IMG/VR virus record: IMGVR_UViG_3300033153_010230
Coordinates: 1 to 22,452 of that record
Direction: 5' to 3' (one strand)
From: a virus
DNA: 22,452 nucleotides
Position 1 is the stretch's first letter. The number at the start of each line of letters is the position of its first letter. Below, piece by piece: positions 2,858 through 22,452 of the stretch. The notes beneath the pieces are model-generated. The model was given only the letters and a program-made list of their open reading frames with translations, ran no database searches and had not been told where the DNA came from. Made by a program: the position numbers and the translations under genes.

Positions 2858-3425
2858 TCTTCATTTTCATAGCCCAGGTAGACACGCTTGGCCTCATGGA
2901 ATTGATGCTTTAGAATTTGGTGAAAATGTTATTCATGCCTCTGATTGTTTCGAGTTTAAAAACATTCCATATAAAAAAGTGATTCATTATAAAGAAGAAT
3001 TCAGGGTTTTCCTTAATAAATGCAAGCTTACTAATACTGTTTATGTTGCCTCTAACCATGGCGTATCAGTCGAAAGGGACATGGTTGGTGAATATTTCAT
3101 AGTTAAAGAATTCAATGGAATAAGAATACTTGTAACTCACGGCCATAGACTTTATTGGAAGGAGAAAAAATATACGAAGTGGGAAAATAAAAAGCCTGGA
3201 AAGGGATGGTGGAAACTACAATGGATCTCAATGAAAAATGGATCTTTCAATGAAAGCTCACCTAAAAGACCACCGCAATATGTAATCGATGAGTGCTTAA
3301 GACTTTGTAAGCTCAATGATTGCAAGGCCATCATCTTTGGCCATACCCACCATACTGCTGACTTTATGGAGCAAGGAATAAGAATTATAAACGTAGGCCG
3401 TGGCCGTACTGAGCTTTGGTTTTAA
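2832..3425 (+). CDS. calcineurin-like metallophosphoesterase
   Basis: This family of two-metal phosphatases or phosphodiesterases includes phage lambda protein phosphatase and nucleotide-repair enzymes. The 197-residue protein shows the signature residues in order: SDLH (D9, H11), the D38 position in HASDCFEF (replacing GDxxD), SNHG (N75, H76; the usual GNHE), THGH (H103, H105) and GHTHH (H171, H173). A basic, tryptophan-rich insert (about residues 109-150) lies between the last two motifs. A good Shine-Dalgarno (AAAGGA) precedes ATG 2832. The substrate cannot be told from sequence. The NlpC/P60 gene follows after one base. Confidence 0.85.
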   Translation: MEKLIAYSDLHFHSPGRHAWPHGIDALEFGENVIHASDCFEFKNIPYKKVIHYKEEFRVFLNKCKLTNTVYVASNHGVSVERDMVGEYFIVKEFNGIRILVTHGHRLYWKEKKYTKWENKKPGKGWWKLQWISMKNGSFNESSPKRPPQYVIDECLRLCKLNDCKAIIFGHTHHTADFMEQGIRIINVGRGRTELWF

Positions 3426-3426
3426 T

Positions 3427-3840
3427 ATGAAAGAAATATTCTTATTGTATGCAATGAGCTTTACAGGCGTTCCTTATTTATGGGGAGGAAACTCTGTTAT
3501 GGATGGAGTTGATTGTTCTGGCTATGTCCAGGAATGTTTAGCAGCGATTGGTGAAGATCCTCCTGGAGATCAAACTGCTCAAAGCCTATACGATTATTTC
3601 GAAAGCAAACAACGGTATTCGAAGCGTAGAAGCTTAGAAGGAAGGATTTTGTTTTTCGGCAAAGATATAGACCATATTACTCACGTGGCAATCGCTCTCA
3701 ATGATCATTTAATGATAGAAAGTGGTGGAGGTGATAGCACCACTGAGACACGCGAGGATGCAATTAAGAGAAGGGCAATGGTAAGGGTTAGGCCTATCTC
3801 CAATAGAAGAGATCTCGTTGCTGAAATAGCGTTATTCTAA
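3427..3840 (+). CDS. NlpC/P60 cysteine hydrolase, candidate endolysin
   Basis: NlpC/P60 enzymes cut peptide bonds in the peptidoglycan stem. The 137-residue single-domain protein has the hallmark GVPYLWGG...DCSGYVQ stretch with catalytic C30 and the HITHVAIAL strand with catalytic H86; a polar third residue should follow near residue 94-98. The start is ATG 3427, since the in-frame ATG at 3400 lies inside the phosphoesterase gene. No signal peptide or wall-binding domain is present, so release would need a holin. The tail module has its own NlpC/P60 protein (17265-17654), so this one may be the lysis enzyme. Alternative: a toxin-like or host-modifying hydrolase. Confidence 0.8.
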   Translation: MKEIFLLYAMSFTGVPYLWGGNSVMDGVDCSGYVQECLAAIGEDPPGDQTAQSLYDYFESKQRYSKRRSLEGRILFFGKDIDHITHVAIALNDHLMIESGGGDSTTETREDAIKRRAMVRVRPISNRRDLVAEIALF

Positions 3841-16000: not shown

Positions 16001-17278
16001 GAAAGTCGTAGATCCACTAGGTAGACCATAGTAATTTGTATAATAAGTAACATTTTCAGTCTCACCATAAAGGCCAACTTCATTTGAAGTTCTTGGAGTT
16101 GTACGCAATATAGTATAATTATTATAAAGCATATTAAATGATGAGTTTCTAACAAGCGGATACATTGGAACAGATTGATTACTAACCCCCGTGATATCAC
16201 CAACCGACGACCAGCTTTCAACATAGTTTTCATCATTAAATGCTTGCCAATTCTCAGTTCCTTCTTCAGCAAACTGAACACTAAGCTCTACAGTTCTATC
16301 TGCCCTTGAACCATTAGTTGCATAAGTTGTAAGGCCTCCAGGGAAGGCGACCATTACAGTGATCTCTTGCCTATCACCATCACCACCATCATCTGCTGAA
16401 CGAGTTGTTTGATACTCAGAAGGATCTGCACCTACATCATTTTCATTAACATTTAAAGTAGCTGAAACATCTATCTGATTAACATCACCTTTATAGTATT
16501 CAAAAGTTTTACTTAGATCTTTATCCCAATCACCAACATCAATATCAGGACGATTAGGATCTACAAATCTATAATAAGCATTAAAATAATCATTGAAAGA
16601 AGTATCACCAATTTTGATATCAGAGACATTAAGCGGCCCATATCCAAAGTCATAGATTCCATAAAAGTATTGAACTATCTCACCATTATCATCTGTTTCT
16701 AATTCTGTATATGGATTAGCAGCAACGATTGGAAACATTCGATGAGTTCCGTAAACCTTTGGGACCGTTCCATACTTATTTGTTTTGTTTGACTGGCCAG
16801 TAATTGCATACATCTGTGAATCAGAGTAATCATAATTAGTAGCAGTTCCACCGATGCCAGCATCAGGAGGAGGTATCAAGGCATTAACAAGAAGAGTTGT
16901 TCCAATAGCAGCACCAACTCTAATGCCAATAGCAGCGGCCATACCCCAACCACCACCAGCAGCGAGGCCACCAGTGTAAGCTGTGGCAACTGCGATAGCG
17001 GCAATGATTGCTACTTGACCTAGTATCTGGCCGAAGTCTCCACCTTTAGGAGTTATCGCTATTAGAACCTGAGAATCACTACTTGGAATAGTATAAGTCC
17101 ACAACTCTCTATCAATGATGTAACCATCAACAAGTATTTCAAAATATTCTTTTAACTTATCATCATTATACTCAAAGGTTTCCCACACACGATCAAAAGT
17201 TTCCTGGAGGTTTTCAGTTCCAACCCTTTCGATTTCGATCTCTTTAGAATTTAGTGCGCTTTGTCTAAATTTGATCAT
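13028..17278 (-). CDS. gpJ-like central tail-tip / host-specificity protein, 1416 aa
   Basis: In lambda-like phages this protein forms the tail tip hub and central fibre and contacts the receptor. Near the N-terminus (about 80-137) is the hydrophobic Gly/Ala helix region (GQVAIIAAIAVATAYTGG onwards) followed by NALIPPP, and then the NKYGTVPKVYGTHRMFP segment typical of J proteins. A hub region follows. Two fibronectin type III-like domains lie at about 956-1055 and 1060-1150. Near the C-terminus a duplicated piece (MSNWVTLS and MSDWVTLS) marks two beta modules. Shine-Dalgarno AAGGAT precedes ATG 17278; it overlaps the NlpC/P60 gene by 14 bp, as expected for K then J. Confidence 0.88.
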   Translation of the reverse strand: MIKFRQSALNSKEIEIERVGTENLQETFDRVWETFEYNDDKLKEYFEILVDGYIIDRELWTYTIPSSDSQVLIAITPKGGDFGQILGQVAIIAAIAVATAYTGGLAAGGGWGMAAAIGIRVGAAIGTTLLVNALIPPPDAGIGGTATNYDYSDSQMYAITGQSNKTNKYGTVPKVYGTHRMFPIVAANPYTELETDDNGEIVQYFYGIYDFGYGPLNVSDIKIGDTSFNDYFNAYYRFVDPNRPDIDVGDWDKDLSKTFEYYKGDVNQIDVSATLNVNENDVGADPSEYQTTRSADDGGDGDRQEITVMVAFPGGLTTYATNGSRADRTVELSVQFAEEGTENWQAFNDENYVESWSSVGDITGVSNQSVPMYPLVRNSSFNMLYNNYTILRTTPRTSNEVGLYGETENVTYYTNYYGLPSGSTTFVSSRYINANDYVTYGGTIVGKIKTRTVFDATHYTYTLYNGLPYNIGVFEDTFKLEFSVYTAINATPSPRDVFNLSRSTSGIVTIIGNSAELVYGSLRFTPKSIDQVKIRITRTRSYGGHTFQIRDEMVWASMTTRFDRNPLATTNRHVFLELRIKATDQLNGTINNLSGICSSVLSVYDGTSWNLEETSNPAWVFADLLTGELNKRKIDKSRLDTDSILEWSTFCSEIPTPPPTKVFEQPRFKSCFVLDYNATLQTLINQVTSSAQASLNIINGRYGVLIDKLKTVPVQVFTPRNSVNFNSSRNYADMPHGFKVKYVDGNEDWSIRETDVYVDGYTSLTATEFEELDTFACTNEEQAWRYGRYMLAQAKLRQENITITADFENLVCTRGDFVLVQYDVMKAGGRPARVKDVAGSNIEIDDGFITEGGVDYGYTFRNSNTGVIVTDTMTITSSTTATVDGIVPGIGDLLIWGEVDNITIECLVRAIQPNDDLSAQLQLVEKADAIYDAESTGELPAYSPQISISVDTEVAPPTEVTNLTVLSNTWTCNAGQYLYTVKLDWGTPDGGVVETYEIYVDSGRGYELIDYSTLTEYTYAVNENDLESIHSFKVIGVASNGNKLSLGEVSDVTATPTSKTTAPSDIDGLFANILNETLQLDWRVVSDCDIDHYLIRYSPKLTASWENSIPLQIVDRNTSLCSVQARTGSYYIKAVDWNDNESDIAASVVTSIPELVNLNVIEETNDFPTVTGSKDQVVKLGDALILQEQLADQYYSDGYYYYSEFLDLGDIHEVRLSSLIDAEGYSEDDIMSNWVTLSDVVLMTSARVSEWDVETHYRSTESFNVMSDWVTLSSIDPISEGAQDQWTPWRKFTIGDFTGRIFQFRLKLVSKKPSISPRVFDGVIKADMPDRTVDFNNLTVPSPGLAVVYDPAFAGPGTTPSIQVTQDAAQQGDYFVLSNKTLAGFTINFYDKNNVAVSRQADFSCKGYGRKQTVIL

Positions 17279-17654
17279 GTCTAAAATATCCTTCTATTCT
17301 TTTTTCCCATTTTGCCAGCTTATCGATAACACATCCAGTTTTTTCCATAGTGTGCAAGAAAGAACCTCCATTGATATAAATACCAATGTGAGAAGAGATC
17401 CCGTTAATTCTAAACACTATTATATCTCCAAAGCCTGGAGAGTTAACTTGTTTAAATTTTTGCTTTTCAATTTCAATTAATCGTGAAACGTTTTTCTTAT
17501 CACTGGGATCATCATAAACGATGGCATCAAGATCAAGCATCATGATCTTACGATAGAATAATTTTGTAATCTCCCAGCAATCAAAAGCTGAATAAGGTAA
17601 ACCTATCAACTCAAGTAAAGAGGCCTGGGAAATTGGTTGGTGTGTATTTTTCAC
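17265..17654 (-). CDS. tail-tip NlpC/P60 hydrolase (lambda gpK-like), GTG start
   Basis: In lambda-type tails gpK carries an NlpC/P60 domain and is needed for tail-tip assembly, perhaps helping wall penetration. This 129-residue version keeps LIGLPYSAFDCWEITKLFY with catalytic C26, SSHIGIYI with H89 and a third His in FLHTME (H101). It lacks the N-terminal JAB metallopeptidase domain of full-length gpK. The GTG start gives a 44-bp overlap with the DUF1833 gene; the Shine-Dalgarno is weak, so a coupled start is likely. Its place just before the gpJ gene supports the tail role. Confidence 0.85.
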   Translation of the reverse strand: MKNTHQPISQASLLELIGLPYSAFDCWEITKLFYRKIMMLDLDAIVYDDPSDKKNVSRLIEIEKQKFKQVNSPGFGDIIVFRINGISSHIGIYINGGSFLHTMEKTGCVIDKLAKWEKRIEGYFRHDQI

Positions 17655-18816: not shown

Positions 18817-20978
18817 TATCTTCCTTTCCTTGTTACGCCATAAACTTCTCTAAAGGTTCGATCAAACCTTCCATCGCCTATAGCTCTTTTAACTTTATCT
18901 ACTACCAATACATCAATTTGAGTTTCACCATTAGGCCCCACACTCTCTTGAGTTTCAGTTGTTGTTCCACTTGAATTATTAATTACATTAACAACTGTTG
19001 AGCTTCCACTTGATGCAACTCCAAGCTTTCCGTTTGCTCCTCTTGTTAATGGCAGTATGGCCTCTGGTCCGGCCTCCCCCATAAGTCCTGCACCGTTGGC
19101 CATTGGAAAAAGGGTAGGGCCGCCGACAACCCCACCCGAAGCGAAAGGTATTACATTTCCTCCGTGAAAGGCGTTACCTTTTGCTGATACATTTGCAAAT
19201 TGAGCACCAGTAGATGTTGTCGATACAGCAGTTGTAAACCCACCACCTCCGGAAGAGAATAGACCGCCAAGTGCTCCTCCTAATGGGCGAACGATTGCTT
19301 GTCTTACTGCAATTCTTGCTAGATCATCTAATATAGAGTTAGTCAATTCTCTGAAACTAAACTTTCCTTCTCTAACAAAAGAGACTAACTGATCTTCTAA
19401 TCCCTTAAATGCTGATCCAATAGACCTTGCGATATCACCAGCGAATGTTCCAAGGCTAGAGCGAAGAGAATTTATACCTGATTCTAATCCGGCCATGGCC
19501 TGCTCGCCTAAGTTCATTTTATCAAAGGCTTCAGGTATTTTTAATAATTGTTGATTGTATTCAAAGACTGAAATTTTTCCTTCGTTCATTTTAACAGTCA
19601 GTTCATTTATTTTAATTCTTTCAAGTGCTGATGAATAAGCTTCAGCATCAATTGCTCCTGATCTAAACTGAGCATTCAATGCTGCAAGAGGATTTGCCTT
19701 TCCACCTTTAGTCGACACACTCAAGTTCTTCATTGAAGCTTCAATGCGATCAAGAATATTTTCAGTTTTTTTCTTTTTCTCTAATTTCTTGATCGCCAAT
19801 TCAAGATTAGTTATCTCTTGTGTTGTTTTTGCAATTTTTGCAATCGTATCTGGCTTTATAACTGGATCTATTTTCATGCCAGCAAGTTCTTTGAAAAAGT
19901 TTATAAACTTAGTATCAATACTATCTCTCCAGGCAAAAAACTCCTGCACAGGTCTGACCAAGTACTTCTTCCAGGCAAGTTCCATTTTCAATAAAGATCC
20001 TTCCCAGTCAAGAGCAAGAGCACCTATCAGTGTCCCCACTACAATCAAAGCAGCACCGATACCTGTAGCTGCCAAAGAAAAAGAAAATGCTTTAAATGCC
20101 AAGATCATGCTCGGTATCGCTCTACCTACGACTAATGTTGTTAAGGCAATAAAGGCAATTCCTATGGTTTCAAGGTTATCAATAAGTCCTTTTGTGAATG
20201 CTTCGAAAGCTCTAGACAAACCGAATTCTTGATTCAATTTATGGATCTTAATTCTTAGAGTATCAATAAGGATGATAGTTGATTGCTCAAAAGTTGTTCC
20301 AAGATTTCCTGCATCTTTTTCTATCTGCTGAAAATTTGATGATAAAGCTCCAAGAACTTTTTCGTTAGTTAATTTACCTTGTTCACCAAGAAGCTTTAAC
20401 TCTCCTTTTGTAACACCAAGAGATTCAGCAAGAAGTCCAGATACTTTTGCGTTTGATAACATAACGGCCCGAAGTTCTTGTCCCTGTAATCTTCCAAGTG
20501 ATAAGGCTTGAGTAAATTGCAAAAATGTGGAAGCAGCTTCTTGAGCACTCGCTCCTGATAGTCTTAATGTTTGTTGTAGGGTTTGGGTAATACCAAGCAT
20601 CTGATCCATCGAGAGACCAGTTCCAGCGGTAGCAATTGCAACTCTGTTAAAGCCTTCTGCAATAGTATCGATTGAAGACCTGGTATGACGTGCGACAACT
20701 GCAATGTCATCCATTATCTCCGCTGCTTTCTCCCCAGAACCAGCGAAGACTGAAATTCGATCTTGTAATAATTGAAAAGTATCAGCAGTTCGAACTAAAG
20801 TTCTAATACCTATCGCAGCAATAAAACCTTTAAAGGCAAGTGCGGCACTACTTAATCCAGATGCCATCTTTTTAGTGCTGCGATTGACACTCCCCATTTG
20901 CGTGGCAAGTTTCTTTAGGTCTTTATCGCCCTTAACTCTGACATCAACTATTATTACACGTTTCTGCTTATCGACCAT
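18816..20978 (-). CDS. tail tape measure protein, 720 aa
   Basis: The protein sets tail length and leaves the tail during DNA injection. The N-terminal part has the tape measure domain: LVRTADTFQLLQDRISVFAG, then ASAQEAASTFLQFTQALSLG and LQGQELRAVM (about 60-175). Hydrophobic helices at about 265-325 (for example IGIAFIALTTLVVG) may cross the host membrane, then a coiled coil (about 385-420) and a Gly-rich end with the GEAGPEAILPL motif typical of lambda-type tape measures. At about 0.15 nm per residue the tail would be close to 105 nm if uncleaved. AGAGGAAA precedes ATG 20978 inside the frameshift frame. Confidence 0.9.
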   Translation of the reverse strand: MVDKQKRVIIVDVRVKGDKDLKKLATQMGSVNRSTKKMASGLSSAALAFKGFIAAIGIRTLVRTADTFQLLQDRISVFAGSGEKAAEIMDDIAVVARHTRSSIDTIAEGFNRVAIATAGTGLSMDQMLGITQTLQQTLRLSGASAQEAASTFLQFTQALSLGRLQGQELRAVMLSNAKVSGLLAESLGVTKGELKLLGEQGKLTNEKVLGALSSNFQQIEKDAGNLGTTFEQSTIILIDTLRIKIHKLNQEFGLSRAFEAFTKGLIDNLETIGIAFIALTTLVVGRAIPSMILAFKAFSFSLAATGIGAALIVVGTLIGALALDWEGSLLKMELAWKKYLVRPVQEFFAWRDSIDTKFINFFKELAGMKIDPVIKPDTIAKIAKTTQEITNLELAIKKLEKKKKTENILDRIEASMKNLSVSTKGGKANPLAALNAQFRSGAIDAEAYSSALERIKINELTVKMNEGKISVFEYNQQLLKIPEAFDKMNLGEQAMAGLESGINSLRSSLGTFAGDIARSIGSAFKGLEDQLVSFVREGKFSFRELTNSILDDLARIAVRQAIVRPLGGALGGLFSSGGGGFTTAVSTTSTGAQFANVSAKGNAFHGGNVIPFASGGVVGGPTLFPMANGAGLMGEAGPEAILPLTRGANGKLGVASSGSSTVVNVINNSSGTTTETQESVGPNGETQIDVLVVDKVKRAIGDGRFDRTFREVYGVTRKGR

Positions 20979-21288
20979 GTTTCCTCTCTTCTTTTCCGTG
21001 ATGCTCTAGGTAAACATTATCAAGTTTTCTCATTAAATAAAGAAAATCATCAAAATCATCTATATCGTAAATTGTAGCAAATTCTGAGATAGAAGTGAAA
21101 GGAATTGGTGCAACACTCATTGTGCTGCGACAAGTATTTAATTCAAAGAAGCTTTCAACATAAAAAACGAAAGGCCCTAGCTCTGGTTCCAGGTCCTTCT
21201 CTTTTAATTGCTCCTTCGCCTGTAGTATTGCATAAGAAGCTTCTCGCCCTTCCCAGTTAAGATTCCAAGAAAGCCAAGAAGCTAAGAG
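20968..21288 (-). CDS. T-frame of the tail assembly chaperone (reached by -1 frameshift)
   Basis: After the G-frame, the -1 frame is open for 106 codons from CTC at 21288 to TAA at 20968-20970, starting LLASWLSWNLNWEGRE and ending HHGKEERKHGR. It has no ATG, GTG or TTG before residue 57 and a TAA in this frame at 21310-21312, so it cannot be started independently as a full domain and must be expressed by the shift at GGGAAAC. In lambda the gpG-T fusion bridges tape measure and tail tube proteins during assembly. The fusion here would have 237 residues. Confidence 0.85.
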   Translation of the reverse strand, partial: LLASWLSWNLNWEGREASYAILQAKEQLKEKDLEPELGPFVFYVESFFELNTCRSTMSVAPIPFTSISEFATIYDIDDFDDFLYLMRKLDNVYLEHHGKEERKHGR

Positions 21289-21294
21289 TTTCCC
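21238..21294 (-). promoter_or_regulatory. -1 programmed ribosomal frameshift signal
   Basis: On the minus strand the heptamer G GGA AAC (21294-21288) is in the X XXY YYZ register of the G-frame, five bases from... its TAG, which starts three bases after the heptamer (TCT TAG). After a four-base spacer (TCTT), arms AGCTTCTTGGCTTTCTTGG and CTGGGAAGGGCGAGAAGCT (21283-21265 and 21256-21238) form 18 pairs, including G-U pairs, with one mismatch and an eight-base loop. This is the classic slippery-site plus stem-loop design; lambda uses GGGAAAG. Confidence 0.88.
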
Positions 21295-21680
21295 AAATCT
21301 TCTTTGTAGTTATCTTGACTCGATGCATGTTCAACAAGAGTATCGAGAAGATCAGGAAGCTGACAAAAAACCTCAACTGCTTTCTCTTTAGAGAAGGGAG
21401 CGATTTCACCATCAATCTCTATCCCTTCCCAGTCGATGACGCATGAATGAACAAATGATTTACAATAAATAGATCTCTCTTTCTCGTCTGATATTAAGCT
21501 CTTTTCAATTGCTTTTGCATAAGGCTTATGGAATTTGGCCATGGCCTTTTTAACTTCTACTGAATTAGATCCACCGAAACGAGCAATCTTGAAGCGAACA
21601 CCTTCACTTATCTCGAACCAAATTCCTTCGATTTCCATTTTCCGATCTGTCTTAAACGATTTGTCTAGATTAATTTTCAT
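21282..21680 (-). CDS. tail assembly chaperone, G-frame, 132 aa
   Basis: It starts at ATG 21680 behind AAGGAG. The protein opens MKINLDKSFKTDRKMEIEG and has a beta N-terminus (IWFEISEGVRFKIARFGG) followed by helices (VKKAMAKFHKPYAKAIEK) and ends in DLLDTLVEHASSQD. This plan and its place between tail tube and tape measure genes match the lambda gpG/HK97 gp14 chaperone family, which holds the tape measure soluble before tube polymerisation. Most ribosomes should end at TAG 21282-21284; a fraction shift into the T-frame. Confidence 0.85.
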   Translation of the reverse strand: MKINLDKSFKTDRKMEIEGIWFEISEGVRFKIARFGGSNSVEVKKAMAKFHKPYAKAIEKSLISDEKERSIYCKSFVHSCVIDWEGIEIDGEIAPFSKEKAVEVFCQLPDLLDTLVEHASSQDNYKEDLGNS

Positions 21681-21712
21681 ATATGACTCCTTTGATAGTT
21701 GGATTTTAGATC

Positions 21713-21743
21713 AAAAAAAACCCCCCTGTCAAAGACAAGGGGG
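21713..21743 (-). terminator. strong rho-independent terminator after the tail tube gene
   Basis: On the minus strand CCCCCTTGTC (21743-21734) pairs with GACAGGGGGG (21730-21721, including one G-U pair) around a three-base loop and is followed by eight T (21720-21713). It lies between the tail tube stop and the chaperone start, inside what should be one operon, so it probably works as an attenuator giving high tube and low chaperone expression. Confidence 0.88.
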
Positions 21744-21783
21744 CTTCATAGGAGTCATAATCACTAGACGTGGATGGCAGCAA

Positions 21784-22452
21784 TTAGGACCTGAATATTT
21801 TTAGTGCTGGTTCTCCGTTTGCTCCAACTTTAGCAACACCACTCATTGTAATAATAACATCTTGGTTAATTCCGGCACTGGCAGGATCATCAAAACTTAC
21901 TTGAACGGCAGGAATAAAGAATGCATAATATCCATCAGCATTTTTAAGTTGAAAACCAATTGAGAAAGATTCTTGAGATAATTTCTTAGCAAGAGTTCCC
22001 CAGTTATCATCAGAAAGATAAGCAGAAATAGAAACTTCAATCTGTGCAGTTCCTTCGCTGTAATCTTTTGGAGCAGTAAGGCCAATACAAGTTTGTGGAG
22101 TCAGATTATTATTAAGGCTAATATCAACTGACTGAATACAAAAACAAGCTTCTTGAAATATTCCAGTTGCACTTGAAGCAATGAAAGGCATATCGACAGA
22201 TCCATTCATTGACTGAGAAGTAGCAGGATCATTAATCGTTCTTCCATCAGTCATGAAGTCAGCAGAAGCCTCTACTGGTTCATGATCATTTCCAGAGAGA
22301 GAAAAAGAACCTGTTATAATCGCACCGTAAGCAGCACTAAGAGAGAAGCCTGAAGCAATCATGCCTCTATAGTTAATGGCCTTTGTGGTTAGATCAAGAA
22401 AAGCTTTTTCCATTGAGAAGGAAGTTTTAGTTGTTCCAATTGAGATCTCATC
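21784..22452 (-). CDS. major tail (tube) protein, N-terminus beyond the window
   Basis: The frame is open from the right edge: 13 residues (DEISIGTTKTSFS) precede the internal Met at 22413, and this fits the family 'eisiGt...SFs.EKaf.Di' opening, so the Met is not the start. The visible 222 residues include KAINYRGMIASGFSLSAAYG, IITGSFSLSGND, and beta-rich repeats to ALKIFRS, typical of long-tailed phage tube subunits of the Phage_tube_2 kind. These subunits stack as hexamers around the tape measure. A strong terminator follows the gene. Confidence 0.8.
   Translation of the reverse strand, partial: DEISIGTTKTSFSMEKAFLDLTTKAINYRGMIASGFSLSAAYGAIITGSFSLSGNDHEPVEASADFMTDGRTINDPATSQSMNGSVDMPFIASSATGIFQEACFCIQSVDISLNNNLTPQTCIGLTAPKDYSEGTAQIEVSISAYLSDDNWGTLAKKLSQESFSIGFQLKNADGYYAFFIPAVQVSFDDPASAGINQDVIITMSGVAKVGANGEPALKIFRS

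Follow-up and report, generated by a model that had tools for sequence, protein, structure and literature searches.

A predicted lambda-type -1 frameshift site, followed by an unusually stable putative stimulatory hairpin, in the tail-chaperone genes of an uncultured phage

The tail-chaperone locus

The window analysed in this study was the whole 22,452-nt stretch of the viral record IMGVR_UViG_3300033153_010230. On its minus strand the genes follow the order tail tube, G, T and tape measure, and two overlapping frames sit between the tail tube gene (PF18906) upstream and the tape-measure gene (PF20155 and PF09718) downstream (Table 1). G starts at ATG 21680 and stops at TAG 21284-21282. TAA 21312-21310 bounds the -1 frame upstream, which leaves it open over 28 bases before the G stop, and TAA 20970-20968 bounds it downstream; the frame holds 113 codons in total, 106 of them after the slip, and the T region overlaps the start of the tape-measure gene. 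This frame has its first ATG, GTG or TTG at codon 64, or at codon 57 when counted from the slip. The G stop, the 106-codon frame, the TAA at 21312-21310 and the start-free first 56 residues were all found where an earlier note on this DNA had placed them.

Table 1. Features of the tail-chaperone locus, with positions counted from the first letter of the window.
Feature	Position	Strand	Evidence or remark
Tail tube protein gene	21784..22452	-	PF18906, 2.2e-22; runs off the window edge
G gene, tail assembly chaperone short form, 132 aa	21282..21680	-	phrog_313, 1.6e-23; phrog_8233, 1.3e-20
T region read after a -1 slip, 106 codons + TAA; tail chaperone C-terminal domain	20968..21288	-	PF23812, phrog_3817
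Tape measure protein gene, 720 aa	18816..20978	-	PF20155, 1.6e-41; PF09718, 7.1e-19
Slip site G GGA AAC, read in the frame of G; the G stop follows after 3 nt	21288..21294	-	Same heptamer in 45 of the 46 distinct close sequences
Second formal heptamer T TTG GGA, overlapping the first and probably incidental	21291..21297	-	In a minority of relatives
4-nt spacer UCUU	21284..21287	-
5' arm (19 nt, with a single G-G mismatch) of the putative stimulatory stem	21265..21283	-	Fold -24.0 kcal/mol
8-nt loop	21257..21264	-
3' arm of putative stimulatory stem	21238..21256	-

The T region matched Pfam Phage_TAC_18 (PF23812) above the cut-off with 1.4e-7 (1.7e-7 using the full open frame) and phrog_3817 with 1.3e-15. 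When G and T were joined in silico, a single match to phrog_8233 covered residues 2-232 of the 237-aa fusion, and its 8.3e-33 surpassed the values for the two parts taken separately. The family matches and the synteny settle the identity of G and T. The T domain starts at residue 32, and codon 64 falls inside it. Since no ATG, GTG or TTG occurs until that codon, a slip is the only evident route to the full T domain. The frameshift reading recovers a second tail-chaperone product which is often missed or truncated by gene callers. The earlier note had stated that automated callers would miss the T frame, which holds for the YuA record, where there is no T gene, and in part for other records, in which a start-truncated T is called.

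Searches with single G and T proteins in viral_contigs gave no matches, an alignment of 18 sequences was too diverse to serve as a query, and nothing relevant was found among solved structures with the G profile. No relative of G was found in the genome collection, where the matches were only to the C-terminal part of the tape measure, and therefore no host was identified. Two NlpC/P60 peptidase genes are present in the contig, one in the tail module at 17265-17654 (-) and one on the opposite strand at 3400-3840 (+).

The slip heptamer and its conservation

Three copies of GGGAAAC were observed in the window. About two are expected by chance, and thus the motif alone carries no weight; the weight of the evidence is in its frame, place and conservation. 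GGGAAAC lies in the X XXY YYZ frame, as the earlier note had claimed when it counted one canonical site in the shift window. However, TTTGGGA (21297-21291) is also formally X XXY YYZ; among relatives it appeared only where GAT/TTT-type codons precede, which is the case in a minority of them. In E. coli, G_GGA_AAC is a low-efficiency slip site, and GGGAAAC is employed by insertion elements (PMC4066793) and by a haloarchaeal virus (PMC5009743).

A search of IMG/VR returned 59 closer G loci, which were reduced to 46 distinct close sequences including the window. GGGAAAC was placed 0 or 3 bases ahead of the stop in 45 of them, the exception being L141. The codon preceding GGA was TTG (29), CTG (7), GTG (5), ATG (2), GCG (1) or ACG (1); it encodes Leu, Val, Met, Ala or Thr, yet it ended in G every time. 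The background in the same genes is low (G-ending codons make up 28% of Leu codons, and GTG 12% of Val codons), and a G-ending codon whatever the residue points to selection on the nucleotides and not on the protein. A heptamer of this kind was also kept over larger distances. Relatives from GenBank included the chaperones of Yuavirus, Septimatrevirus, Lokivirus, Titanvirus, the Caulobacter giants and others, and each of the 20 that were fetched had an RRRAAAC or GGGAAAA in the correct frame, with 0 to 39 nt between it and the G stop. The comparison of related phages that the earlier note had proposed thus came out in favour of a conserved heptamer. A joined CDS was already annotated in seven records (KL1, Kakheti25, Loki, RcHartney, CcrColossus, Siara and CcrKarma).

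Some relatives carried other motifs at the slip position. L141 reads CTG GGG GAG, that is GGGGGAG (L141:1887-1893), in place of GGGAAAC and keeps the T frame, and the same GGGGGAG was found at the slip position of the distant relative L037 (L037:1639-1645), again with the T frame kept. GGGGGAA is a recurrent non-canonical slip motif in actinophages (the 'fivetwo' sites), explained by G-U pairing of the glutamate tRNA on GGA (PMC10885494), and by analogy this pairing would also serve at GGGGGAG. We considered L141 as a counter-example in which T was retained and GGGAAAC lost. It is more probable that the slip site was exchanged than that it was lost, because L037 also has GGGGGAG and this motif resembles the GGGGGAA class (PMC10885494). 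The window differs from these actinophage sites in having the canonical GGGAAAC. Another distant relative, L088, has A_AAG directly ahead of the stop; A_AAG is the best slip tetramer in E. coli (PMC4066793).

We found no Shine-Dalgarno-like stimulator upstream of the heptamer in the window, where the anti-Shine-Dalgarno pairing energy was -1.8 kcal/mol and the local mean -2.3 kcal/mol. In about one third of the relatives (for example L125, L121 and L162), AAGGAAG, absent from the window, ends a few nucleotides upstream of the heptamer and is a possible Shine-Dalgarno-like 5' stimulator. Lys just upstream of the slip site was encoded by AAG in 15 of 21 cases, compared with 37% in the genes overall. 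Across the relatives, the Shine-Dalgarno-like strength showed no link with hairpin strength (Spearman 0.08).

The hairpin behind the heptamer

The stem with 18 of 19 pairs that had been noted four bases downstream of the heptamer is present, though five of its pairs turned out to be G-U and 13 Watson-Crick. It is built of 9 pairs, a G-G mismatch, 9 pairs and a loop of 8, and the last two letters of the G stop codon, AG, are part of it. With 4 nt, the spacer falls a little below the usual 5-8 nt (PMC4066793). The minimum free energy of -24.0 kcal/mol (z about -3.9) was equalled by none of 200 dinucleotide shuffles, and only 13 of the 14,930 57-nt windows on both strands, in 5 distinct places, folded as stably. 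Synonymous recodings of the T frame reached this stability in 18 of 3,000 cases (p 0.006), and codon permutations in 0 of 3,000. No complement of at least 5 nt to the loop was found within 80 nt, as a pseudoknot would need. As an intrinsic terminator the stem was rejected: there is no T-run, and it did not appear in the terminator scan. Elsewhere in the window, at 16948-17004 (minus strand), a 57-nt segment within the long J-like tail protein gene folds most stably of all (-28.5 kcal/mol).

Across nine close sequences, the 18 pairs of the window formed in 46.9% of cells compared with 45.1% in shuffles, so the pairs are not conserved; the covarying stem positions that the earlier note had hoped for did not exceed shuffles in these nine sequences. 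Structure as such was more frequent: 15 of the 45 close sequences (33%) had a z below -2 in the 57 nt behind the heptamer, compared with 10% of 268 nearby controls (Mann-Whitney p 0.003, an optimistic value because the sequences are related). No other of the 45 had a z as extreme as that of the window, and L126 (-26.8 kcal/mol) came second. In L110, which is the nearest relative (G 71% identical), this place showed no significant structure (z +0.64). In Achromobacter phage JWX, a stem of 11 bp without interruption lies 8 nt downstream of the heptamer. A stem this long so near the heptamer had been regarded as untypical. That is right for its degree but not for its kind, which is known from the 15 structured relatives, from JWX and from dnaX. 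In the sequences compared, the hairpin behaves like an element particular to its lineage, whereas the slip site before it is fixed.

Proposed frameshifting and rival explanations

Domain content, synteny and the near-universal conservation of the heptamer back the earlier reading of a tail-chaperone -1 frameshift. With high confidence, we take the site as a candidate for programmed -1 frameshifting of the lambda G/GT type, with the lineage-specific stem probably stimulating it; the frame, heptamer, domains, synteny, conservation and in-silico hairpin stability were observed, and the slip itself, its efficiency and the effect of the hairpin are inferred. With three bases left before the G stop, ribosomes on G would come upon G GGA AAC, where a fraction would slip back one base, the P- and A-site tRNAs re-pairing on GGG and AAA. 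The slipped ribosomes would read on through the 106 T-frame codons, giving the 237-aa G-T besides the 132-aa G. If the proteins work as in lambda, G would bind the tape measure protein and the rarer fusion would recruit tail tube subunits. When the heptamer occupies the P and A sites, the 18-bp hairpin would stand at the mRNA entrance of the ribosome and probably raise the slip rate.

The locus resembles lambda gpG/gpGT in the order tube, G, T and tape measure, in T lying in the -1 frame, in the G-T fusion (PMC5009743) and in a GGGAAA-type heptamer near the G stop. However, lambda has GGGAAAG 15 nt before the stop while GGGAAAC lies here 3 nt before it, the downstream structure of lambda is weaker (-12.9 kcal/mol) than the 18-bp stem, and G and T belong here to phrog_313/8233 and PF23812. 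Septimatrevirus Kakheti25, Kilunavirus KL1, Lokivirus, Titanvirus, Siaravirus and the Caulobacter giants have a homologous G, the same heptamer class at the same place and T in -1. In these joined-CDS phages, however, G is about 24-31% identical, and the hairpins are either different or lacking; in most siphoviruses of the set an additional gene, absent here, separates T from the tape measure. E. coli dnaX shares a simple hairpin a few nucleotides behind the slip heptamer, but it differs in its A_AAA_AAG, its upstream Shine-Dalgarno-like stimulator, its 11-bp stem and a shift that shortens the product (PMC5009743). We read the site as an ordinary, textbook lambda-type case in an uncultured phage, with a putative stimulator that is unusually stable.

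It is very unlikely that T is a separate protein made from its own or a re-initiated start with no slip. Some GenBank records do annotate T as a separate gene, but no ATG, GTG or TTG precedes codon 64, inside a domain which starts at residue 32, and the conservation of the heptamer at silent positions would then have no reason. Transcriptional slippage, by which mRNAs with an altered base count would give the fusion through normal translation, seems even more improbable. The runs on which bacterial transcriptional slippage is described have about nine A or T (PMC5009743); some relatives do have six A in a row, in AAAAAAC, but the runs here are just GGG and AAA, and GGGAAAC is the rule in close relatives.

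The role of the hairpin is less certain than the frameshift. The stem could be fortuitous, because its pairs are not conserved and L110 is unstructured there. The frameshift would then be real, the heptamer working alone as in the relatives without structure, and the hairpin a by-product of the coding sequence; this fits with about two thirds of the close sequences lacking significant structure at the same place, and we hold it for a serious but less probable explanation. Against it stand the rarity of equally stable folds among synonymous recodings and codon permutations, the extreme z of the window and the enrichment of structure just behind the heptamer in the family. A real stimulatory effect of the hairpin is considered fairly likely. 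GGGAAAC is weak in E. coli and yet used by insertion elements and a haloarchaeal virus, which suggests that the stem could matter more here than at the GGGAAAG of lambda. More tentatively, the heptamer may be nearly fixed while the hairpin is rebuilt in each lineage, tuning the ratio of G to G-T, with this phage at the strong-stimulator end. The family offers a natural series, with the same heptamer and hairpins from none to -27 kcal/mol, for measuring what the hairpin contributes at GGGAAAC.

Upstream, an intrinsic terminator with a T-run lies between the tail tube gene and G (21747-21717, minus strand). Its 3' arm holds TTGACA (21732-21727), followed 18 nt on by TAAAAT, and the whole region (21703-21747, minus strand) reads as a predicted near-consensus promoter built into the terminator. 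TTGAC before G recurred in most close relatives, often within or just past a terminator-like hairpin, and the Loki record annotates a terminator at the same place before G.
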